Positions 1,403 through 58,187 of a DNA stretch of 64,000 nt are shown here, in pieces; within the stretch, counting starts at the first letter, position 1, and each line of letters begins with the position of its first letter. This DNA comes from Cliona cf. orientalis. Its lineage: Eukaryota; Porifera; Demospongiae; Clionaida; Clionaidae. Both the position numbers and the translations under genes were made by a program. The DNA lies in the NCBI GenBank assembly GCA_963930775.1, contig OZ005689.1, positions 33,031,235 through 33,095,234 of the forward strand, given 5' to 3'. The notes under the pieces are model-generated. The model was given only the letters and a program-made list of their open reading frames with translations, did no database searches and was not told the origin of the DNA.

Positions 1403-4400
1403 TCACAGTGCGGCACATGATTTACACTTCCAGGGGACATCTTTTTTTTCAAAAACATAGTTAGGAACGTCCATGCAGTGTTTGTGATACCACGTTTTAC
1501 ATACATCACACTCGGCCATTTTATCACCTAATTCCTCGGGCAAGCGGCAGGAGCAGTGAAGGTCCACTGACTGGGTGTGCCTGACACCAACAGTCCTGCG
1601 CTCACCGACCGCTGGGAAGCGAGAGAGGCGACATTTCTCCAAGCACTCTGCCAAGTGCTGCCTCATAGACCTGTGATCGTACTTGATCTTGCATGGGTCA
1701 TTACCACTGCAAATGTCGTATGCAAATGCTAAGGCAAGGACTCCACAATCGGAACCATTTGACTGCCTTCCAACATCCATCATTCTCACTACAAGCTGTT
1801 TAGCAGGACTAAACACAAGGCTGGCAATCAATTTGACCGTCCCACTGGAAGCACTGGAGTACATGCTGTCGTACACATTGACCACTCCATCGTCACATCC
1901 AACGTTGGAAATAGTACACCAGTGACAGCCTCCAACAAAGATGATCTGCACAAATTCTCCTCTGAGGATTTGGAACGACAGACTCCTGTGAACTGCCGGA
2001 TCTTGCAGGCCAGCTATGTTTGGGAATTCCTGCAAGATGAGCAACTGACCGGCCCTAATGACTGTGTCTGAGAGCCAACCATCAGATGAAACAATTTCCC
2101 GTTTCTTATCTATGTGCAAGGTGTACAGTGGAGTGGACACCCAGGTGTTGCTTACAACTGCAGAACCATCGGCTGAAGACAAGGCTGTGGGATCGTCAGT
2201 CAGGTCAACAACATGCTCAATAACAGGCTTGGCTAGGCCACAGTTACACACTTTGAGATTTGCAGAATCATTTGCTACATCTCGTAGTGAGGTCCTTCCT
2301 GCAGTTCGCCAGTTGTCTGCTGAAATGGATGGATCACCGCTGATAGCCGTCAACTGCCCCTTTGCATAGCCAGTAGTGAGAACTCCCTTGTGACAACATA
2401 GTAGGCATCGATCACCAAACACTTGCACAACGCGGCAAGGAAGGTGACATTTGCCCAATTTGCTATCATGCAAATTCACGCAGTCACCCACCTTGAAGTT
2501 GGTCCTAGGCCTTTTCGCTGGGGGAGGCTTCTCACCACCTGGCTTTTCTCTCTTTCCTCGACGAGTGGACCTCGTATCGACCGGCTTGCTTGCTTTAGGA
2601 GGTTTGGATTTCACACAATCATCATCCTTGCCATTCTTGTCAGAGTCAGCAGAAGAGGCCTTGGGAAACAATGTGCACCCAACGTAACGATTTCGTGAGT
2701 TTGAGGGGCAATCCCTCTTGTGTGCTCGTCCGAGCGCTCCGCACACACAGATACCACTTATTACGTCATCTTCAAAACACCAACTAGTGTCACCAGTTGG
2801 GGTAGGCACACTTTTTTCCAAAGAAATGCTTTCTGCATCTGACAGGGTATCCTCAGAATAGGAAATGACATCATTATTGTCAGATGCTCTGTCATCCACA
2901 GAAACACCACTTCTCTGATTCTTTACGTTCAAAGGACATTCACTGTGATTGGTACGTAGGTGAGTGGTGGACCCACACTTGCACGTCCCTCCAGTTGTAT
3001 GCTTCTTCTGTCCTTTACGTTTGAGTTCATCTTCGTCTATGTCACTGTCGTCACTGCCGTAGGTATCGTGGCCATGCTTCTTTGACCACAGCTTGCGACG
3101 CTGTGCATCCACTGTTCGCTCACTTTTCAACTGTATTCGCCTCCGCTTGGAGGAATCGGTCTTTTCCTGATCTAAGTACATCATTCTCTGTCGATTGAAT
3201 GTCTCCAGAGCAGCCTGAACACCATCAAACACAGGTAGCTTCAGACGCTCAAACAGCTCAACCACCCAATGATATTGTGGCCCACGCTTCTCATACATGT
3301 ATGTCATGTTGGATTGCAGCAGAGCCAGCTCAGTTGAAACCACATAGTGTAGCCTCTCGAGGAAGATGTGCTTTGGTCTGAAGCGAATGAACACGTTGTG
3401 GGAGGCCTCCAACCAATTGGAATGCCCCCTTTTAAGAATGGGGTGAACCAGCTGTTCGGCCATTTCTGCTCTCTCATGGCATTCAATTTCGTAAGCCAGA
3501 GAGTGGAAAGGACATGTCAGTGCATGCCTTGTGTGATAGTCTGTTCCTTCGCACTTCAGATCCTCTCCATCCTTACACTTGCCACAGTTGCATACTCGAA
3601 GTTGGTGAAAGTCACACCTACCAAACCCCCAATCGTGCTCGTCGCGGGCATGTCTGGCCAATCCTTTCATCTTGGTTGCAAACTCTTCGGCAGATTCACT
3701 CATCGACGAAAAGTAGTTTCTGGCCTTTTCAATGAACGCCTTGGAGAAGCAACCACATCCCTGTTTGTGCCTTGAGCAATGACAGACCACATCGCCAACA
3801 GAGGAAAAAGTGTCTTTATACTTTCTTATTAAATCAACAGTGAAGGACTTGATTTTCTGCAGCTTTTCTAGCTGCTTCTTGTGGGCCCTACCGGCATGCC
3901 CACCACAGATCATGATCTCTGCATTGGGAAAGTGGTCTGTCACTGCCTTAGCAGAGGAGGAGTCGGCATCTTGCCACTGAATGGCAATGTTCATCCCTTC
4001 CTCCTTGGCTTTTTTGAACGTAAGGCGTGCGGCATAGCCTTCGGCACCCTTGGATGTCCCCTGGTAGAGCTCTTCTTCAATTATGTCATCTCTGCCTTTC
4101 TGACAGAGATGCTTGCGGTAAAGAAGAGCTCCATTGTAGTAGTTTCGAATGCTGAAAGTAGCATTCTTGCTGTGATGACCACGTGTCATCCACGTGCCGT
4201 CAGCGGACGTGACGGCACGACTCCACAAACCCAGTTCATTTTGGTCCATGCGTTGCATGTCATCCTTTGCATCACTGCACATCTTATCGACCATCTCTTT
4301 GACAATAGGGTACATTCTCTTGATGGTCGAGTCAAACATTGGCCAACTAACTCCTTCAATCCCAAGTGCATGCTTCAATACCTTGTAATAAGTCACATGC

Positions 4401-4837
4401 GTGCAACCAGCTATGATAAAAGCCACCTGCGCAGCAATACCAATTTCGGTAGCACAGCCAAGTTCGTATTTAGATGATGTTTCAAACAATGCCCACTGAC
4501 TAGCACAACCGTTACAAGCATAGGTGATAGAAAGAGCACCACCCAGCCCAAGGCTTTTCACATGAATGGGACACAATGCACCTTTACAACCAGGTGTGGC
4601 ACAACAACGTATTCGATTCACTTGCTTCATGAACTTGTTCAATTGTTTCAAGTCCATGAAGCAAATACTTGATGGAATAAATGACGTATTTTCTATCCTC
4701 TCTCTAACCTTTCTTTGAGGGGTTGGAATGTACAGGGAGCCATCATTATTCTCCACTGTCACGTTGAGACTGTCAGTCTCTTCATTACTCTCCACTGTCA
4801 CATTGAGACTATCATTATTTGACGTGGGAGTATCCTA
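1403..4837 (-). CDS. Mutator-like transposase fused to Ulp1-type protease and PHD finger (last exon)
   Basis: An uninterrupted reading frame of about 1,140 codons. The N-terminal part has a Cys-rich zinc segment (residues 66-102), then transposase motifs ADGTWMTRGHH (~200-210), QDADSSS (~277-283), ICGGH and NWLEASHN (~462-469). Asp201, Asp280 and Glu466 are candidate DDE residues. Two Cys/His knuckles follow (~607-622, ~685-698). Residues ~885-1060 look like a C48 (Ulp1/SENP) peptidase with His960, Asp978, Gln1013 and Cys1019 in the expected order. The C-terminus (~1083-1129) is a C4HC3 PHD finger. The frame stays open upstream of its first GTG to an in-frame TAG at 4835-4837 that overlaps a TTTAG acceptor-like site, and the next in-frame ATG is ~50 codons in, so an upstream exon is likely. 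A 12-residue tandem repeat (SLNVTVESNEET) sits near the N-terminus. Role inferred: cut-and-paste transposition, with SUMO cleavage and chromatin reading. No terminal repeats were identified. Confidence 0.8.
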
Positions 4838-5208
4838 AATGGCAAAGAAAACTTACGGTGATGTGCATGCATACAGATAACTTCTTTCAATGAACATGTC
4901 ATATAAGCGAAATGTATCAGCCTCCCAGTCTAGTGTACACCCACCAGGCCCTCCCCCAATAGCCAGAGTTAACAAAATGGTAAAAGGTCATCACTCTTCG
5001 GTCATGTAGTATGTAAAGTATATCCTTTGGAAGTCTCATGCCCGCCCACTGTGTGTCTGCCTATAATTATGCATAACTACTGTAACATCTCTCCAGTTCT
5101 TCTTATTCTACCCAGGATTCCTCATATTATTGGGACTTTTAACATTCTTACAACACTGAGAATTTCGTGTTTTTTTTGTTTTTTTTTTCAAGCAGACCAC
5201 ACACTAAG
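4838..5208. other. Upstream flank of the transposase gene; no exon fixed
   Basis: A donor-like CCGTAAGT on the minus strand lies about 20 bases from the acceptor, too close for an ordinary intron. I could not place the upstream exon or a promoter. Confidence 0.3.
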
Positions 5209-5430
5209 CAGAAAAAAATTGTCCGAAAACCACCACATAGTTGAGCTGGATGCATAGTAGAGCCATACAATGCAAGCAGCCTATAAATCAATTTTGACCA
5301 AATTGGGTAATGGTCGTCACGTTGATGTGCGCATGGGCGGAAAATGTTGCAAATACATGGCTTCCTATACAAACATATGGGAAAACTTCAAAGGGCCATA
5401 ACTTTAATTGTAAGGTGTGAATCAAAAATC
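5209..5430 (+). repeat. Dispersed repeat family B, copy 1
   Basis: Shares an ordered series of blocks with 23101-23353: CAGAAAAAAATTGTCC, CACCACATAG, a GGCGGAAAA...TTGCAAA block, CATGGCTTCC, ATACAAACATATGGGA and AAAGGGCCATA. A short related piece lies at about 9360-9445. No ends or coding capacity are recognised; probably an old nonautonomous element. Confidence 0.65.
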
Positions 5431-6150
5431 TGTCTGAACAAACCTCTAGTTTGGACCCATTCTGCATGCCCATGTAAAAACTATCCCCCCCCAGTGCTCC
5501 CAAATCTCCCATGAATTAGTTATTTAAATATGCTTTTTTTTCTACTTAGTGTGTAATTAGTGTGTAATTTCCCTACTTTATGCTTTATGGTTATATTTGT
5601 GCCCAAGACATGTCCTTATAGTGCACAGCAGGGGGACAGAGGGGGGGACATAAGAGGAAGCCACCAGCACCCCACTGGTATCACTGGTATGCCGCACCAT
5701 CAAAATTTTGAAATCACTGCATGCCATCATGGCATGATGTGTGGCCAAACTCCTGATGTGGGAATATAATGTTCAGTATAATTATTATGAGGTTGATCCA
5801 AATTAAGGGGCTGAGTTTAATATTCCATCTCGCTACTAAGATAAGTTATTAAAGGATGGAAGATTGTTCCAGCCTTGAACATTGCATTTTTACGCAATTT
5901 TTACGGTATCAAGCATGGAATTTGTGTAACCACTGACTTGGAGGAGCTGAACCTTTATGGTGATGACTGTGATCGCTATGATCTTCAGTCCAGAAAGAAA
6001 GAGTATCATTGGACGATCATTGTGCTGATCTTGCCTCTCATCCAATATTCTGGTACAGAATTCGAGTCTTATAACAGTCATTTTCCATACATAGCTTCAA
6101 TCTTTTTATGTATGCCTCAACCATCAGGGAAAGCCGGACATGCTCTCAGC
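5431..6150. other. No gene recognised
   Basis: Apart from poly-G/poly-C runs near 5485 and 5641, nothing coding or repetitive was identified. Confidence 0.3.
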
Positions 6151-48737: not shown

Positions 48738-49344
48738 AGTATTACTTGGCTGACCATCTTTTTTACCAAACATAAATCCACAAGCACTGTTTATTATTAA
48801 AAGCATACGTAATTCAGTGTAGAGAACAATTATTGTACCACGAGGCATAGTATTCAACAACTCACTGACCGAATAATAGTAGATCACAACTTGAAACACT
48901 TTTAAATTAACAACCAGCCACCACCAAAAGGATGACAATCAGTCAGTCAGCTTGCACCACAAAGATTGATAATACCGCAAGATACAGCACTTGCTACCAA
49001 ATCATGTGGTGCTTTAATAATGAGCATTAATATCTAGAGCATGACGCAGCCAATGACGATCTTTACCTAACTTTACTTCACTCGAGTATTTAGCTATGGT
49101 AAATATTATTGTCATTGGCCAATATGGCCTAAACTGTGTGTTGATGATGATGCATCAGTATACATACTAGTATTTAATCTTTTATTATCCAATATACATG
49201 AAAGATAACCTTTCCCAGCATCATTGGCTGTTAACACTTAGCGGTCGAGCGCAATAATTTTAAACTTCGCGCACATACGGCGCGCGCGACCCACCCTATG
49301 ACCTCAGAGACGGCCTTTTTCGGACCTCGTGACTCGGGGAGAAA
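48738..49344. other. No gene recognised
   Basis: AT-rich, with GCGC-rich patch at about 49250-49340 up to the target duplication GGGAGAAA (49337-49344). Confidence 0.3.
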
Positions 49345-49495
49345 GGCTCATGGCACATTTAGCGAGTGCTGAAATGATGTAATGCATAATTATTATTATA
49401 ATTATAATAATATTATTATATGTTTATAGCGAGTACTGAAATGATGTAATGCGTAATTATCATGTCGTGTATATATATAGCTAATGAAATGTCTC

Positions 49496-50030
49496 AGTGC
49501 AGGACAGTATAATGTGACAGTGGGACTGTAAGACTGTAGGACAGTATGACAGTGGGACACTGAATATAGGCCCATAATAAGACTGTGGGACAATAAGACA
49601 GTATATACTCAGGACAGTATGACAGTGTGATCGTCCGTACGGGACAGTACTGTGATGACAGTGAGACAGTAAGACTATAGGACAGACTGTATGACAGTAT
49701 GACAGTGGGACAGTAAGACCATATTATATTATAATAATATTATAGGAGTCCTGGACAACCTGTATGATAGTACTATAACAGTGGGACGGTAAGACTATAG
49801 GACAGTAAGACTGTACGACAGTATGACAGTGGGACAGTAAGACCATAGGACAACCTAGCTGTACTGACAGTATAACAGTAGGACAGTAAGACTGTATAAT
49901 TATTATAGGACAATTGTGACAGTGGGATAGTAAGACTATAGGACAGTATGACAGTGGGACACTACATGCATATAAACTGTAAGACCGTATACTGCATGTG
50001 GGACAATAAGACAGTATAGGACAGTATCAT
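49496..50030. repeat. Left subterminal minisatellite
   Basis: Imperfect units of about 18-33 bases built from GGACAGTATGACAGTGGGACAG and TAAGACTATA. Same sequence as the right array, reverse-complemented. Confidence 0.9.
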
Positions 50031-50269
50031 GCACGTGCATCAAAAGGCAATAGACAAGATATTGAAAGAAAGAGGACAACTGTTACAGCAAAATTGAATC
50101 AGCTAAAGCAACAACCAGTAAGTGTAAGCAGGTTCAATGTGTGTATTATAATCATACTGAATGGCATAAATAAGAAATCATAACAATGTTACAATTTATA
50201 ATCGCAAACACCAAGAAATTAGTATTAGCTAACCTCAGCATAAGAGACAGTGTCATAATATTGTTGTAG

Positions 50270-51304
50270 TCATTGTGTAGTTGAGCGTTCAACAACACCA
50301 AAAGATTCAAGCTCCTTGTTATCAGCAGAATCCAACAAGCGATTATGCTGAGAGGCCGTTATGTAGGTTTGGTCAATTTCTTTAAAGCGTTGCATGTAGG
50401 TGTCCCAGTTTTCATCTCCAATTAATTCTGTCACCTTACACTTGTTTTCTTCTGATGGGATCAGCTTATAAGAAGCTGTCTGTGTCCTTGTTAAAGACTT
50501 TAGTTTGCCAATGTGCTGTTGCTCTAATCCATTCATTTCTTCAACCACCTTTTCTGCTTGTGGACGCTGCTTAGTGGTCATATTTTTTATGACACTCCTA
50601 GGTGTCACAAATGCCCCCTTTGTGAGTAGTATGGTAACTGCTAAGGATGGCTTATCTCTAATATTGGGATCTGAAGAAGAGGATGTTTTCAAGTCACCAA
50701 CCTACCAGAATAACCACAATAAACAGTCATCAATAGGTGCATGTACTACCTCTTGGCACCACAATGCTGTGTTATCTGCAATTCCCATGTCAATTTGGTT
50801 ATCCCATTTTATAACCAGTATGTACCAACCAAAACTCATTACAATGTCATAGTAACACCCAAGCCACTGATTGCTTCATTACATGCAACCATTGGCCACA
50901 AGGGGAGTATATAGAAGTGAGACCTGATGCCATTGAATACCTATGTCAAAGAGGATGGGAAAACATATCAAGTATGATTTAAAAATAGAATTTTAACTGA
51001 CAGCCTTGTTAGCTATATACATGTGTGCATTGCATGTACATTGTATCCTTGCTTGGATGAAAAACACATACATGCATACATCCACGCCTGTAGGTAGCCA
51101 GATTAGGGATGAATACCTACATACAATTAGTCAGCCCGACAGATGTCATAGCATGTACATTAAAAACCTGAGTAGCCTAAAATAGTTAAAGACCCCCCCC
51201 CCCCCCCCAAATGCTGGGGTCTGATACCACAAGTGACATACCTTGTCATATGCTTGACGCTGAGCCTGGAAATACTCAGTTAGTGCAATAGCCATCTGCA
51301 CCTC
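50270..51304 (-). CDS. Unknown two-exon gene piece in the 8-kb element
   Basis: Exon 51304-51242 lies between an AACAG acceptor and a GGTATGT donor and reads EVQMAIALTEYFQAQRQAYDK. After an acceptor at 50702, exon 50701-50270 continues in phase: VGDLKTSSSSDPNIRDK, LLTKGAFVTPRSVIKNMT, KQRPQAEKVVEEMNGLEQQH, then a stop. About 164 residues, mostly helical and charged. Upstream exons are probably missing from my model. I do not recognise a domain. It is divergent to the OTU-CXC gene. Confidence 0.45.
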
Positions 51305-52242
51305 CTGTTAAATTACTTTGGTCACCACATCTGAAGTGAAGGTATCATCAGAAAGTACTAGCCTTGCTCTGTCCAAAAACCGCAGTCACGCCCACTAAAT
51401 GACGTCACTCACACTTTGGTGGCTTCCCGAACTGGTACACTTCGGAGCCCTACTCTCGCAGAGGCGGCCCACTTCTATACCCCTTGAGCCTGCCTTATCA
51501 ACTTCTATACTTTCTCAACTTTCTCAATGACCTAAACTAACTTCTAAACGGAGCACTTCTTGATAGCTAGCCCATGAAGGGAGTAGCAACTGAAAAGGTC
51601 GTTTTGATGGGGTCTATAACCCACTATTAGGGCTTATAACTAGTGATGGGAAGTATTTCAAAACAAGCGCTCCGTTAGACTATCTCAGTACATCAGGAAG
51701 AACCTTTCTATGTCCGTGAGGTAAGCTTCAGGTATCGTCTTCCTCGCCGCCTCTTCAATCTACCGCTCTTGCCTTTGAAGCAGCCATTTCTGCTGACTAA
51801 GCAGTGCAATTGAACTTTGACCCACATAGATGCAATACAAGCACCAGCGCGTGGTTAATGCGGTTACCGCGGAATGTCGATTTTGTGCTGACTGATGCCT
51901 AGACAGTCCTTAATGCACCTGAGCAGGCTCTTTCACTGCAGCTATTGTGCCAGGATTACATTGGTGGGCAATAATTGGAGTGGATAAGGTAGCAGGATCA
52001 CTTTAGTGGTCAGAAACTACTACGACTCATATTTCAAAACTGAAAGTGAAAATCAAAAATCTGAGACGATTCAATTATTATTTTTGATCCACTCTACATG
52101 GTGATATAAAAATTATTGCACAATACCTTTTCCTGTGTTTCGAATGAATTATTTACATTACATTACATTACATGCTCACATATTCTTTTATCTTAGGTTG
52201 TAACTTAGTGTATAATTTTTTTTTTTTTTTTTTTTTGGTTAG
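51305..52242. other. Between divergent genes; no exon fixed
   Basis: The N-terminal half of the OTU domain should be encoded by exons here or be lost. I could not find its catalytic-Cys motif. A T run (~18) precedes the acceptor at 52241-52242. A TTACATTACATTACATTACA tandem lies at about 52151. Confidence 0.3.
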
Positions 52243-53090
52243 GAGAAAATTCTCATTTGTATCAATCATTCTTAATACATGATCAGCTACAGAATGAGGC
52301 ACAAAAAGTCCTCCAAGATGGCCACTATAGCGGTGACCTGGGTGACCTTGTCCTTCCTGCACTCGTGAATGTATTATCTCAACCAGTTACAATCTTCACA
52401 TCTGCTGAAAACATGCCAGTTGTAACACTAATGCCGATATCTTCTCCTGTTGTTGACTCACATCCATTTTTCCTAGCATACAACCAAAATGGATCTGGCC
52501 ATTACGACGCAGTATCTCACATTGACCAACTGGAGGAAAAAGAAAACATCCAACCAACAATAAAATGCACGTGTGGAAGAAATTCAACAAAAGGTGTGTC
52601 GTGTGTTTACTCCATGTATCACTACAGCACAAAATGTCCCTGTTTTAAGGCTGAGAGATCTTGCATTCAAGATTGCAGATGCAAAAGTTGTCAGAATCCC
52701 CATGGAGCACGGCCACAAGTTATAACATCAAAAACTGGATTCAAGAGGAAACGTGATCGATACGACACTCAAGCTTATCCACTTAAAGGGAGAAAGACAT
52801 CTAGGGTTATGGAACAAGTATCAAAAGACATGAGCACAGGAAGCACGAGTAATTTTGAGTACCTGCTTATCAGTGCCATAATTCAATATTCATATCCAGA
52901 TGTGCAGGATTGGACAGATGTTGACTTGATTGATCCAGATTTTATTGCACAGAATTTTGATGCTGTTCGGAACATTACAAACATTCTAGGCATGCAATTA
53001 CCACTCTACAAAGGAAGTGTGCAGGAAATTGAAAAAGCACTTAAGCACTACCAGTCTCAGTTCGATGTTTTTTACAAATTGTATACTTAG
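52243..53090 (+). CDS. OTU-like peptidase C-terminal half plus CXC zinc domain (last exon)
   Basis: The frame opens at a TTTTGGTTAG acceptor and runs 282 codons to TAG. Residues ~5-95 match the second half of an OTU deubiquitinase fold: HYSGDLGDLVLPALVNVLS, VTIFTSAENMPVV, then FFLAYNQNGSGHYDAVSH with the catalytic-type His in GHYDA. A CXC (tesmin/CRC-like) region follows: KCTCGRNSTKGVSC, then YSTKCPCFKAERSCIQDCRC and CKSCQNPHG. The C-terminal ~100 residues are unassigned. The Cys half of the OTU active site would lie in upstream exons. OTU plus CXC is, from memory, a layout found in transposon-like invertebrate genes. Inferred role: ubiquitin removal and DNA binding in transposition. Confidence 0.75.
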
Positions 53091-53690
53091 TTATAATGTC
53101 ACTCTCCTTGCTAGGTTAGCTATTATAGCTATCTTCTTTTTCGGTTATTCATGTGATTTCTTATTCATGTATGCATGGTAGATGTTTATACCTACTGGTT
53201 GTTACTGATTCTGTTGTCAGCCTCTTCCTTTCAATATCTTATCTTTAGATGACATGTGCAGGACCTTGTGCACTGAGTATAAAATAACTGCAGGTTCTAA
53301 ACCATGGCATTTTTTTCATGACCCATGCCATAACAGCTAGTGCATACTCACACTTATTACAATATATATATTATTATATGACATGCATGGGACTTGCGTA
53401 TATAACTTGATGTCATCATTGATGTGGCTATGGCAATCCCAGTGTTGTGTCATCACATGACCACGCAGGCTCCATTATAATTGTGGGGTGTTATAATTAT
53501 TATCTATCTGTATCCATTACTTTTAAAATAAAATACCTAATATTTCACTGCTTGTCATTGTCCCAAACATCGGCATATCTTGCTGTCTGTACTGACCACA
53601 ATCCATCTTTTCTACAATCTTAATTACTGTAATACCATCTTACTACCCCAGGCAAGGTCATTGTTATTATATAATAATTATTATTGTTCA
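53091..53690. other. 3' flank of OTU-CXC gene
   Basis: AT-rich; a poly(A) signal-like AATAAA variant (AAAATAAAATA) lies at about 53525. No further exon. Confidence 0.3.
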
Positions 53691-54038
53691 GTCTGCAGTC
53701 TTACTATCCAATCATACTGTCCTACTGTTAAACCATCCTTAGGTTATTATCTCACTGTCATACTGTCTTACTTGTCCCATTGTCATACAGTCCTATAATA
53801 TATAGCCCCGTTTACACGCAGTGTTTAACGTGGATTGGAATGAGTGTTAATTTAACTCGCATACGTGTAAACGCGCTAACGCGCATTGGAAACTGGATTA
53901 CGTAACCCACCTCAGGATGTGGGTTGAACCCGGATTGAACCTGGATTAGGCGCGAAATGTGTGCGTGTAAACAGCTGACGCGAGTTAAGTGAAGCGGGTT
54001 GGAGCTGCTAGCCACCACAGATAGACCACAACTGAAGT

Positions 54039-55097
54039 ATGGCCACCACAAGCACTTCTCGCGGTTCCTCTTGGTCTGTTAACGAGGTCAGGGCTCTCAT
54101 TAGCATCTGGGGAGAGGACAGAATCCAGGAGGAGGTGGATGGAGCTGTGAGATATCAGGCCATATTTAGTAGTATAGCAAAGAAGATGGAAGAAAAAGGA
54201 TATGACAGAGATTGGCTACAATGTAGAAATAAAATCAAAAATTAAAAAAAAGAGTATAGACAAATAAAGGATCATAATGGACAAACTGGGAGAGGGAGAA
54301 AAACGTGCAAGTACTACAAAGAATTAGATGACATATTGGGACATTATCCAGCATCTGTGCCAGCTGTTGTACTTGACACTGGTACCACCAGCAACAGCAG
54401 CAGCACCACCACTGAAGATACCAGTACCAGAGCTGAAGGAGAAGAAAGTGAAACTAATGGTAATTCAAGACACAATTAATTTAGTAATAATATTACGATG
54501 ATAATTTTGTACATTACTTACTAATCAACAGATGGAGATGATGTTCAAGCAACTGCACCCCTAGACAGTGCACTCGTGTCTCAGATAGCTGGTAGTGGTA
54601 CGATGAATGATCAAGGATCTGGGGATAAAACAGGTGTGCATATGTCAAGGATACGGTCTTTGTTATTCATGTATGCACACACACTCACACACACAAAATT
54701 TATTTCTGGAGAGCAAACGCCAACATGAATTCTTAGTCCTACTTTGGTTTTTTTCTTCATGTACATATGCACACGTAACGTACATGACCATGCACGCACA
54801 CGCACACCACTAGCTACCCCGCCAAGGAAGAAGCCTAGACTGAACCCCTCAAAGAAGAGCAAGGCCGAAAAGACACTTGAAAAGGCAATGGAGTCTTTCA
54901 TGAAGTACCAGCATGATGCAGAACAAGATTACAAGAAATACAAAGAGGAGCGCTGGCAGAAGGATAAAGAATTAGAAGAACGAAGAAGACGTGAAGATAG
55001 GGAGCATGACATGAGGATGATGCAGATGTTAGGCACTATGTTCCAAGGTGGCAGCTACAACAGTTATAACTCTCAGCAGTACGAGTTTGACTATTAA
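54039..55097 (+). pseudogene. Harbinger Myb/SANT-like DNA-binding protein, one in-frame stop
   Basis: Exons 54039-54459, 54532-54633 and 54814-55097 fit by splice sites and phase. The N-terminus has the trihelix/Myb pattern SSWSVNEVRALISIWGE, WLQCRNKIKN, then KKEYRQIKDHN and CKYYKELDDILG. TAA at 54243-54245 falls between KIKN and KKEY. Exon 3 adds an NLS (PPRKKPRLNPSKKSK) and a charged coiled coil (EKTLEKAMESFMKYQ; KELEERRRREDREHD). In this superfamily the Myb-like protein binds element ends and helps import the nuclease. Confidence 0.8.
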
Positions 55098-55326
55098 ATT
55101 ATTATAACATATTACGTCATGATACACAACACTAGTTCTATACAGTATAATAATTATTATTAAGTATTCAGCTGTTGTTACATGTACCTGCTTCTACAAT
55201 AAGTTTGTTACATGTATTATAGTCTTAGGTGGTAAAATGTGATTTCAAAGCATCTCTTATGCTATCTTGAGGCTGAGAAGGGACTGCTATACCTGAACTA
55301 CTCACTTGACTCTCAACTCCTTCTAA

Positions 55327-56359
55327 CTAATCGTCATTAAAATCTTCTCCGTGGACTTCACATATGTTGTGAAGGACACAACATGCAGTAACCAATTCTG
55401 GTACATCACCAACATCCACATCCAACAGGACGACGGCCGTTGTTGGGATATGCCTTCATCAACCAGGGTAAGAGTGGATATGCAGGATCACCAAGTATGA
55501 CAAGAGGAATGTCCCTTTCATCCATTTGCTCCTTCCAATCTGGCAAAGGTTACCACTCTGTCCCCTTTGGTATAGGCTAGAGTTGGCAAAGACACGAGCG
55601 TCATGAACCCGACCTGGCCAGCCCACGTACACATCTGTAAAACGGCCTCGATGGTCGACAGTACCTTGAAGGATAATGGAGTGCCAGCCTTTCCTGTTGT
55701 AGTAGTCGGCTGGACACTCCTGAGGAGAGATGATGGGGATATGGGATCCATCGACTGCTCCCGCACACTGAGGAAAACCCAGATTATGCTCAAAACCATC
55801 AACAATCTCCCGCAAAGCCGTTCCACTAGGAAATGTTATGTAGCAAGGGAGCAGACTCTTGACGATGGCAGAACACACATCCTTGGATACCAAACAAACA
55901 GTAGACTTTGATACTCCGAATAAGTGACTGATAGTGCGATAGTCAGCACCTGTGGCTAAAAACCATAACGTAATTGCAACACGCATGTCAGTAGGCACTG
56001 CTCTTCTCATGTCAGTATCACTCTTCTCAATGGAAGACCATAATTCATCGCACAAGTACATGAAGGTACACTGCGACATGCGGAAGTTCTGTAACCAATC
56101 TTGTTGCGTAAATGTTGACTTTACAACATGCATGCTCCCACCAATGACTACTCCTCTCTTTTGACCAAATCGTCCTTTCTGGTGACAGATTGCAATAGCT
56201 CAAGGTCATCAATGCAACAAACATCAACCGCTCCATAGCCTGCCTTCTCAAAAATGCTCGCCTCTTCTCTCTCACTCGCTCCAATCTCTCAGCGGCCCTA
56301 CGCTTCCTTTTCAGCAGAACATTCCGAACTACCGTCACAGCAACACCACGCTTATCCAT
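55327..56359 (-). pseudogene. HARBI1-like nuclease, frameshifted, catalytic Glu region deleted
   Basis: From ATG at 56359: MDKRGVAVTVV, a basic helix (KRKRRAAERLERVREKRR), IWSKERSSHWWEH, a frame change near 56130, FTQQDWLQNFRMSQCTFMYL, VAITLWFLATGADYRTISHL, GVSKSTV, CAGAVDGSHIPI (first Asp), ADYYNRKGWHSI, GRFTDVYVGWPGRVHDARVF (second Asp). After another frame change near 55540 it reads [20 protein letters not shown], then jumps to VPELVTACCVLHNICE and FNDD-stop. The segment that normally holds R-AR-VVENAFG with the third acidic residue is missing, so the protein could not be an active DDE enzyme. Confidence 0.85.
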
Positions 56360-57358
56360 TGTCCAACAAAAGTTTTTAATCCTTGTACGTTTCCAAGTCG
56401 TTACTAGGCAATCGTAACCCCTACGCGCATGCTCAAACCCCACACAAACAACAGTACCAACGAATACTTACCTGTCAACCTGTTCTTGTCTGTTAAACGA
56501 GTTATCGAGCCCTCCTCTTCGTCTTCTGAGCTTCTTTGTTGCTGTTTCCAAATATTGAGCACCTCAGGTGACTGGTTAACTCGTGTCACAATCCTTAATT
56601 GCATTTACACACCACTTCCTTAACGCGGTTTGTGGTTTCGCGTGTGGACAGAGATAACGCGCATTAGAATGCGCGTTAACTAATTTGGATTAGTACGTGT
56701 AAACGGGGCTTATTATACAGTCTTACAGTCTCACTGTCATACTTTATGCTACAGTCTTACTGTCATACTGTCCCACTGTCATACTGTTCTACATGCAGTC
56801 TTAATAGCTACTGTCCTAGTCTTACTCTCCCACTGTCATACTGTCCTACAGTCTTACTGCCGTATACAGTCTTACTATCCCACTGTAATACTGTCCTACT
56901 GTAACAGTCTTATTGTCATACTGTCCTACAGTCTTACTCTCCCACTGTCATACTGTCCTACAGTCTTACTATCCCACTGTAATACTGTCCTATAGTCTTA
57001 CTCTCCCACTGTCATACTGTCCTACAGTCTTACACTCCCAGCTACAGTCTTAATACTGTCCTACGGTCTTACTAGTACTGTCCCATTGTCATACTATCCC
57101 TACAGTGTTACTGTCTCACTGTCATACTGTCCTGCAGTCTTACTGTCATATAGCTATACTGTTCTTACTCACTGTCATGTACTATATATCACATCATGTA
57201 CAGTCTTAATACTATCTTACTATCCTACAGTGTTTAATACTGTCCCACTATACTATTATCATCAACCATAGTATTACATATAATTATATAAATATAATAT
57301 ACTATGATTAATATTATGCATTACATCATTTCAGTACTCGCTAAATGTGCCATGAGCC

Positions 57359-57710
57359 GGGAGAAAGGGGTCATGTTCTTGGGCTTTTCGTGCTTGGTAG
57401 AAGCGTTGCGTTGCCGAGGGCTACTGAAAGCGTGGAGAGCCAAGCCTAAGGCACAGTCTGGAAGGGGTACTTGGCAACGGTAAAGGAAAGGAACGGTGCT
57501 AGAGATCATCAACAAAGCGATGATTATTTTCGGAGTCTATCTGTAGTCTCTACCTCCCACAAATGGATGAATCATCGAAAGAAGACCTGGAAGGTAAACT
57601 GAATTGATTATAAGTCACTAGCACGAGTGTGTGCGTGCGTAAGGTAGATAAAGACAAAAAAAAAAGAGCCAGGCATTACGCCTAGTTACAATGCATGGAG
57701 GGTGTGGTGT
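57359..57710. other. No firm gene
   Basis: A possible small first exon (MDESSKEDLE) starts at about 57562 and ends at a GGTAAAC donor. No partner exon identified. Confidence 0.3.
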
Positions 57711-58187
57711 TTAGCTAGGCAAGTTTCTTTGTGTGTGGTAGAGTTCAAAGCATGGTGATGGGCATAGTGTAGGCTTGGTGCTGCAAGTAGCACATTGGAA
57801 GAAGGTAAGGTGCCTAGTACCTCCTGGTGTCCTATCACTACACACCCAACAGTCCTTGCGTTTCCGCCCCTTCTCTTGAAAGTGACGAACATTCTGAAAC
57901 CTTTCCAGGTTCTGAGCTGGTGGTGGCCTTCTTGTCGTTCGCTGGTGTCCTTGGCTAAAGCCTTGTGCGTCATTGGTCGCTGTCCTCGTGATGTTGCCAG
58001 CTTCTTGTAAATGATATACGAGTTGATGACGGCGACCTCGAGCATCCAAATGAAGATCTTTCTCCACCACTTGACGCTCTTGTGGAGAAAGCTATAGTAG
58101 CTGGCAAACTGATCCAGCTTGTCTACTCCCAGCATGTGCTGATTGTAGTCATCAATAACTACTGGTTTCAGCTTCGTCTGACCGGAT
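57711..58187 (-). pseudogene. piggyBac-like transposase C-terminal remnant
   Basis: After a TTTACAG acceptor at 58188 the frame reads KPVVIDDYNQHMLGVDKLDQ, YYSFLHKSVKWWRKIF and MLEVAVINSYIIYKK. This is the conserved end of the DDE_Tnp_1_7 domain. After a frame change near 57880 it continues RKRKDCWVCSDRT, FQCATCSTKPTLCPSPCFEL and YHTQRNLPS-stop, the usual C-terminal cysteine-rich domain. The rest of the transposase is absent. Confidence 0.8.

Follow-up and report, generated by a model that had tools for sequence, protein, structure and literature searches.

The stretch analyzed here, referred to as the window, comprises 64,000 nt of the genome of the sponge Cliona cf. orientalis (assembly GCA_963930775.1, contig OZ005689.1, positions 33,031,235 to 33,095,234 of the forward strand), and it contains an 8-kb element at 49345-57358, which a preliminary description had presented as a transposon-like unit carrying an OTU-CXC gene. 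The element is flanked on both sides by exact copies of the 8-bp target-site duplication (TSD) GGGAGAAA, at 49337-49344 and 57359-57366, as had been reported. Comparison of the termini and pairing of copies placed the left terminal inverted repeat (TIR), which starts with GGCTCATGGCACATTTAGCGAG, at 49345-49400 on the plus strand, and the right one at 57303-57358 on the minus strand; the inverted ends are thus as described, but they are 56 nt rather than about 47 nt long, with 91% complementarity. Motif counts defined a left subterminal minisatellite of 8/16-bp units with GACAGT at 49503-50025 (plus strand) and a right one in reverse orientation at 56733-57244 (minus strand), the inner part of which lies at 53716-53767 (minus strand), to the left of a nested PIF/Harbinger element that interrupts it. 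The opposed arrangement claimed earlier was borne out by the plus-strand counts: GACAGT occurs 25 times and ACTGTC not at all within the element's initial 1000 bases, whereas its final 1000 bases contain no GACAGT and 22 ACTGTC. The rest of the window (55,978 bases) has 11 GACAGT and 14 ACTGTC.

The recurrence of the element was examined in the host's own genome (216.8 Mb, 149 contigs; L-numbers denote stretches taken from it), where its first 201 bases gave 27 matches. The copy survey covered the window and 20 fetched stretches, with the ends paired by hand. Two-ended copies, measuring between 0.95 and 9.2 kb, were found in 13 of these 21 stretches, and the eight single-ended ones (L014, L015, L017, L020, L021, L022, L023 and L027) were not counted among the 13; the right end of L028 was matched across 18 bases only. 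Eight of the 13 two-ended copies showed a perfect 8/8 flanking duplication (GGGAGAAA, CCGACTAC, GTTAATTG, ATGCAACT, GGCAAGTT, ACTTGAAT, CAGAGCAC and GAATGATT). When the window flanks were joined with one GGGAGAAA, an empty-site check suggested earlier, two single-piece matches were obtained at 80%, C1:32089605-32089868 and C1:25296092-25296354, with positions 1-265 of the 303 in the query aligned across the junction at 110. As judged by alignment coordinates, not letters, these are paralogous sites without the element. The idea that the boundary arose by chance or is an assembly artefact found no support, and it is contradicted by the recurring ends, the exact TSDs and the unoccupied sites, which leaves it a practically negligible probability. 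Hence, 49345-57358 is a true transposon boundary, as the preliminary description had proposed. The orientation of GACAGT varies among the copies, being inverted in the window copy, L009 and L010, and reversed, one-sided or mixed in L012, L018, L025, L026 and L028.

The interior of the window copy was compared with its sister copy, L009 (C8:9089098-9097457), to which it is 95% identical across 2,043 columns, 97% across 1,565 columns, and 92% across 672 columns comprising the right minisatellite and end. The data showed that about 4.0 kb (L009rc 2034-6063) is missing from the window copy, with 902 other bases in its place. The deleted stretch corresponds to the transposase core, described below, and half of the OTU domain, and so the window copy is a non-autonomous deletion derivative without this core. 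The earlier statement that no transposase core is present therefore holds for the copy's own gene, because of the deletion, but not for the stretch as a whole, which carries the transposase of the nested Harbinger. Likewise, of the two options left open at that time, a new family or an incomplete one, the copy is indeed incomplete, and the family itself is unclassified. In the comparison of the filler with repeats, in which 40 of the 317 candidates were scored, the sequence at 51334-51923 proved to belong to a dispersed repeat, with several further copies that match precisely that span at 91-96%, and the sequence at 52000-52204 to a second dispersed repeat. A single alignment to C9:4327316-4328053 (85%) takes in both pieces, and therefore they may have arrived as one block.

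What is left of the genes of this copy lies on both sides of the filler. Pfam matches and motifs identified 52236-53090 (plus strand) as a transposase gene remnant consisting of the C-terminal OTU half, with GSGHY near 52491, the CXC domain at about 52566-52691, and a C-terminal region. The OTU half and CXC noted previously are thus present, and the match to MSL2-CXC has an E-value of 7.3e-5, although its 23.3 bits fall under the cut-off of 26.7. Compared with L009, 10 of the 846 nt in this remnant are different, which changes the amino acid in eight codons and is silent in two; in these small numbers there is therefore no sign of selection keeping it. The minus strand contains a remnant exon at 50270-50701, probably the C-terminal one of an ATPase gene, the product of which is nearly identical in L009 and resembles L010:1359-1850 by inspection. 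Because this exon has no Pfam match of its own, its assignment is based on its position and on the comparison with L009 and L010. A second probable ATPase remnant exon, like the first from the 3' part of the gene, was located at 51146-51307 (minus strand), near the deletion border, by comparison with L009, and it gave no significant Pfam match. These ATPase gene remnants, as well as the nested Harbinger, had escaped the preliminary description.

The organization of the gene could be followed in fuller copies. In the 9,169-bp L010 and in L009, the gene on the plus strand (in the orientation of the window) begins with a cysteine-bearing N-terminal part, which is followed by the motifs SCDHTF, [YF]IDNCC.W and GTNRNEALH, then by the OTU motifs DGNCLF and G.GHY, then by CXC and a further C-terminal region. 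In a distant relative, L059, the motifs DHTF, IDNCC, GTNRNE, DGDC and GSGHY as well as CXC are all within one 650-amino-acid open frame, and in L060 the core and OTU-CXC are likewise in one frame. The motifs IDNCC.W and GTNRNE.LH are invariant across the four-row core alignment, while the decayed copy L023 has IDNYYAW in place of the former. Three acidic residues in these motifs (the D in DHTF, the D in IDNCC and the E in GTNRNE) probably form a DDE core. The DGxC and late histidine motifs of OTU are present in L009, L010, L023, L059 and L060, which is consistent with a predicted peptidase activity, and among the Pfam models MSL2-CXC fits the zinc domain best, in the window, L009 and L060 by cysteine pattern. 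Sequence searches of PDB yielded no firm match; one of them gave two OTU-named chains, with E-values of 0.02 and 0.056, as well as the CXC of MSL2 (0.14), alongside chance matches, for example to neuraminidases. No relative was confirmed among viral contigs, prokaryotic genome contigs and phages, in searches that may have omitted records of the host's own genome.

To the preliminary description, OTU-CXC appeared as cargo. The corresponding explanation, in which these domains were captured from the host and the transposase is located elsewhere, agrees with the window copy taken alone, where no other part of the protein is recognized. On the other hand, the core of L010 matched 18 genomic places, and OTU-CXC was found within 12 kb and on the same strand at 16 of them (both sets of places are lower bounds, that is, at least these numbers). 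The order of core and then OTU-CXC persists down to about 30-40% identity, and in L059 and L060 the two are fused in one frame. Because the core adjoins OTU-CXC at 16 of the 18 places, the cargo explanation was rejected as very improbable. In these relatives, OTU-CXC is hence the C-terminal part of a probable transposase.

The N-terminus of L010 gave a match to DUF6729 with an E-value of 0.0046, at 17 bits versus a cut-off of 27, and no such match was seen in L009. DUF6729 proteins elsewhere may contain a similar core. None of the DUF6729 places lay closer than 12 kb to any of the 18 transposase places, in a test in which six places were entered, one per contig and cluster of 21 rows. At C5:1855738-1869638, DUF6729 matches stand in a row across about 14 kb, which could represent either relics of transposons or a cluster of tandem genes.

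The fuller copies carry a second gene, for a DUF3987 P-loop ATPase, which is divergent from the transposase gene in both L009 and L010. On the opposite strand of L010 three exons match DUF3987, two of them above the cut-off, and the Pfam model matches two stretches in L009; the Walker A motif is present in both copies. When one L010 ATPase exon was used as a query, seven places were found at E<=1 among the matches listed, and the four strong ones (on C1, C8, C10 and C17) each have this transposase within about 15 kb, although on C10 and C17 the two genes may belong to separate elements. The DUF3987 ATPase domain is described as a predicted helicase of prokaryotic mobile elements (PMC5862659). 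The gene considered here shares this ATPase domain, but it is split into exons and belongs to a eukaryotic TIR transposon, and no primase was seen in the scanned pieces of the fuller copies.

Taken together, we consider it likely, with a probability of about 85%, that the window element is a defective copy of a cut-and-paste TIR transposon with an 8-bp TSD, whose fuller relatives encode a probable core-OTU-CXC transposase, and which is at present unclassified. Several observations weigh against this interpretation. Among the two-ended copies, five of the 13 (L012, L013, L016, L026 and L028) are without a TSD, and the GACAGT layout is not universal, since the five copies named above deviate from it. 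The protein is split across several frames in L009 and L010, and either copy may therefore be damaged; the core of L059 has a gap after IDNCC in comparison to the other aligned rows. The OTU domain exceeds the Pfam cut-off in L009 (27.2 versus 23.3 bits), and is below it in L010, L059 and L060, while CXC is below the cut-off in the window, L009, L010 and L060. DDE was assigned by inspection of motifs. In hmmscan of pieces of L009, L010, L059 and L060 no Pfam transposase family was found for the core, and neither Pfam nor PDB gave a sequence match supporting an RNase H fold; the RNase H matches of L059 were weak (best E=0.047) and were not repeated with a profile. Finally, the DUF3987 model was found within 12 kb at only two of the 18 transposase places.

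Two further proposals concern the classification of this transposon, and both are compatible with the interpretation given above. The resemblance to Zisupton/KDZ elements that had been pointed out earlier can be retained for the 8-bp TSD, which is the length given for Zisupton (PMC12730594). The KDZ (Kyakuja-Dileera-Zisupton) domain, PF18758, was absent from the hmmscan of the L009, L010, L059 and L060 pieces, and of the 68 KDZ matches in the host, merged to 41 places, none had one of the 18 transposase places within a distance of 12 kb. One could propose that the OTU-CXC family is a deep KDZ branch, in which the transposase diverged past the reach of Pfam and the divergent DUF3987 gene is common to both groups. 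One argument for such a relationship comes from the partner gene. At three of the 41 KDZ places (C1:29808217/29810688, C1:33922494/33924632 and C1:25102454/25098268) a DUF3987 gene lies 1.6-3.2 kb away and is always divergent, which is the same arrangement as in L009 and L010. These pairs point to a possible two-gene KDZ design. With uniform placement, 0.06 DUF3987 neighbors would be expected within 5 kb, as compared to the three that were seen, and about 0.1 for C1 alone, a value computed with 24 DUF3987 places, which became 25 on recount. An ATPase linked to KDZ is a weak relative of that of the OTU-CXC family (27% identity, E=0.03), although partner genes are able to move between transposons.

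The comparison of the transposases themselves gave a mixed picture. L043 and L054, which are two of the three KDZ places paired with DUF3987, served as a positive control, with the KDZ domain above the cut-off in both, and they also match CxC5, L054 barely below the cut-off. Parallels between the motifs were seen by eye (YDRAC/IDNCC, VDRFH/LDLFH and GTNTE/GTNRNE), and the score of L010 against L043 over the whole length was reached by one of 500 shuffles. However, this was the one pair of eight that stood out, as the other seven whole-length tests were unremarkable, and for the block around the GTN motif, which was picked post hoc, six of eight were unremarkable and two stood out. The hhalign score of 12.7, obtained with alignments of four and two sequences, did not exceed that of shuffles (13.4 +/- 2.4, maximum 22.0) or of the reversed control (15.2). 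The two groups have in common the 8-bp TSD, the TIRs, a cysteine-rich zinc domain that accompanies the transposase, and, at some KDZ places, the divergent DUF3987. They differ in that the zinc domain of the OTU-CXC family is MSL2-like and C-terminal, and no Pfam KDZ or CxC domain is found with it; the CxC-type cysteine clusters of KDZ were not seen in the scans of the window, L009, L010, L059 and L060, which gave MSL2-CXC and TCR matches only. A deep KDZ branch is thus a tentative proposal that we would not favor over its negation, and the comparisons suggest KDZ kinship as a lead, not membership. Three KDZ places in the host (C8:8149759, C19:2731353 and C1:27603201) have the same scores and frame lengths, which suggests recent KDZ copies.

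The second proposal is that the family represents divergent MULEs. It draws on precedents in Dupeyron et al. 2019 (PMC6446971), who list an Ovarian Tumour Gene for the Cnidarian MuDR-6_HM, a minisatellite and a 9-bp TSD for Rehavkus, and an 8-bp TSD for Spectre. The 8-bp TSD also lies within the MULE-type range of about 8-11 bp. In contrast, none of the seven scanned pieces matched a MULE, SWIM or PHD model up to E=10, a threshold to be read with the fact that the HMMER filters lose most matches above about 0.1, and we regard a MULE origin as unlikely. A C-terminal OTU protease domain is also found on the transposase of some Ginger1 families (PMC2836005), and hence an OTU domain on a transposase is already known from both Ginger1 and MuDR-6_HM. 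Ginger1 elements, however, have a 4-bp CCGG/CCGT TSD, TGT ends and a Gypsy-type integrase, while the OTU-CXC family has an 8-bp TSD, GGCT ends and no integrase match. The hallmarks of hAT and P elements are a hAT dimerization, BED or THAP domain. None of these was detected by Pfam in the L009, L010, L059 and L060 pieces, and the 8-bp TSD is the only common trait. Assignments to MULE, Ginger1, hAT or P fail because the core domain remains unmatched. As regards MSL2, its CXC is the Pfam model closest to the zinc domain of the family; the match is under the cut-off, however, and the domain sits behind OTU in a probable transposase.

The OTU-CXC family is thus a TIR DNA transposon, the superfamily of which is possibly new. 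A more specific version of this idea, which we put forward with considerable reserve, is an undescribed superfamily defined by a DHTF/IDNCC/GTNRNE core, an OTU deubiquitinase, an MSL2-type CXC docking on the GACAGT arrays, and a divergent DUF3987 helicase-like ATPase common to some KDZ elements of the host. In searches of the open-licence literature, no title or abstract described a transposase of the core-OTU-CXC type that is accompanied by a DUF3987 gene; Repbase was outside these searches, so that a named entry may exist there.

The features described above could be combined in the following mechanism. The transposase would bind the TIRs and, probably, also the arrays of GACAGT in the subterminal regions, with CXC as a candidate reader of the latter; the CXC of MSL2 binds GA-rich DNA. 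It would cut and join DNA with an 8-nt stagger, as expected from the element class, using DDE catalysis, as the motifs suggest. The OTU domain could deubiquitinate either the transposase or the local chromatin, and the DUF3987 ATPase could assist DNA remodeling or repair. The window copy inserted into a host segment that is element-free in two paralogs, and its core was removed by an internal deletion, in place of which there is now sequence from dispersed repeats. Such a replacement by foreign filler is reminiscent of abortive gap repair in other transposons, which is a plausible cause here. The PIF/Harbinger insertion into this copy could have come before or after the deletion.

The seemingly host-like OTU-CXC gene is hence the tail of a probable transposase, and similar genes annotated in animals may be relics of transposons. 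Should the core lie outside the known superfamilies, it would add one more superfamily with an unusual two-gene design, that is a deubiquitinase-bearing transposase and a helicase-like ATPase. Were the new superfamily real, it would also provide a link to KDZ transposons and an example of a transposon equipped to strip ubiquitin where it acts. The question whether a CXC domain recognizes the transposon's own subterminal repeats thereby becomes testable.

The nested PIF/Harbinger element occupies 53804-56710 (2,907 bp), where L009 is unoccupied, and is bordered by perfect 15-bp TIRs (AGCCCCGTTTACACG). It is flanked by TAT duplications at 53801-53803 and 56711-56713, as seen from the letters and the comparison with L009. 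TAT departs from the TWA that is typical of PIF/Harbinger elements. The nested element contains a Myb/SANT-like frame at 54036-54245 on the plus strand (PF13837, E=2.2e-13) and a DDE_Tnp_4 transposase frame at 55459-56199 on the minus strand (PF13359, E=1.9e-13), and the combination of DDE_Tnp_4, the Myb/SANT partner and the 3-bp TSD identifies it as a PIF/Harbinger element. The 8-kb element was also considered as a product of this Harbinger, which was rejected because the Harbinger is bounded, within the right minisatellite, by 15-bp TIRs and a TAT duplication that belong to it alone, and its site is unoccupied in L009. In the flanks of the 8-kb element, a dispersed repeat at 48945-49234 stops 110 bases to the left of the insertion, and about 40 others, up to 98% identical, were among the matches listed. 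The right flank at 57367-57866 is part of a segment with two paralogs on the same contig, 70% identical, and a frame of 14 codons that begins at 57563 is perhaps a first exon belonging to a host gene that has been duplicated.

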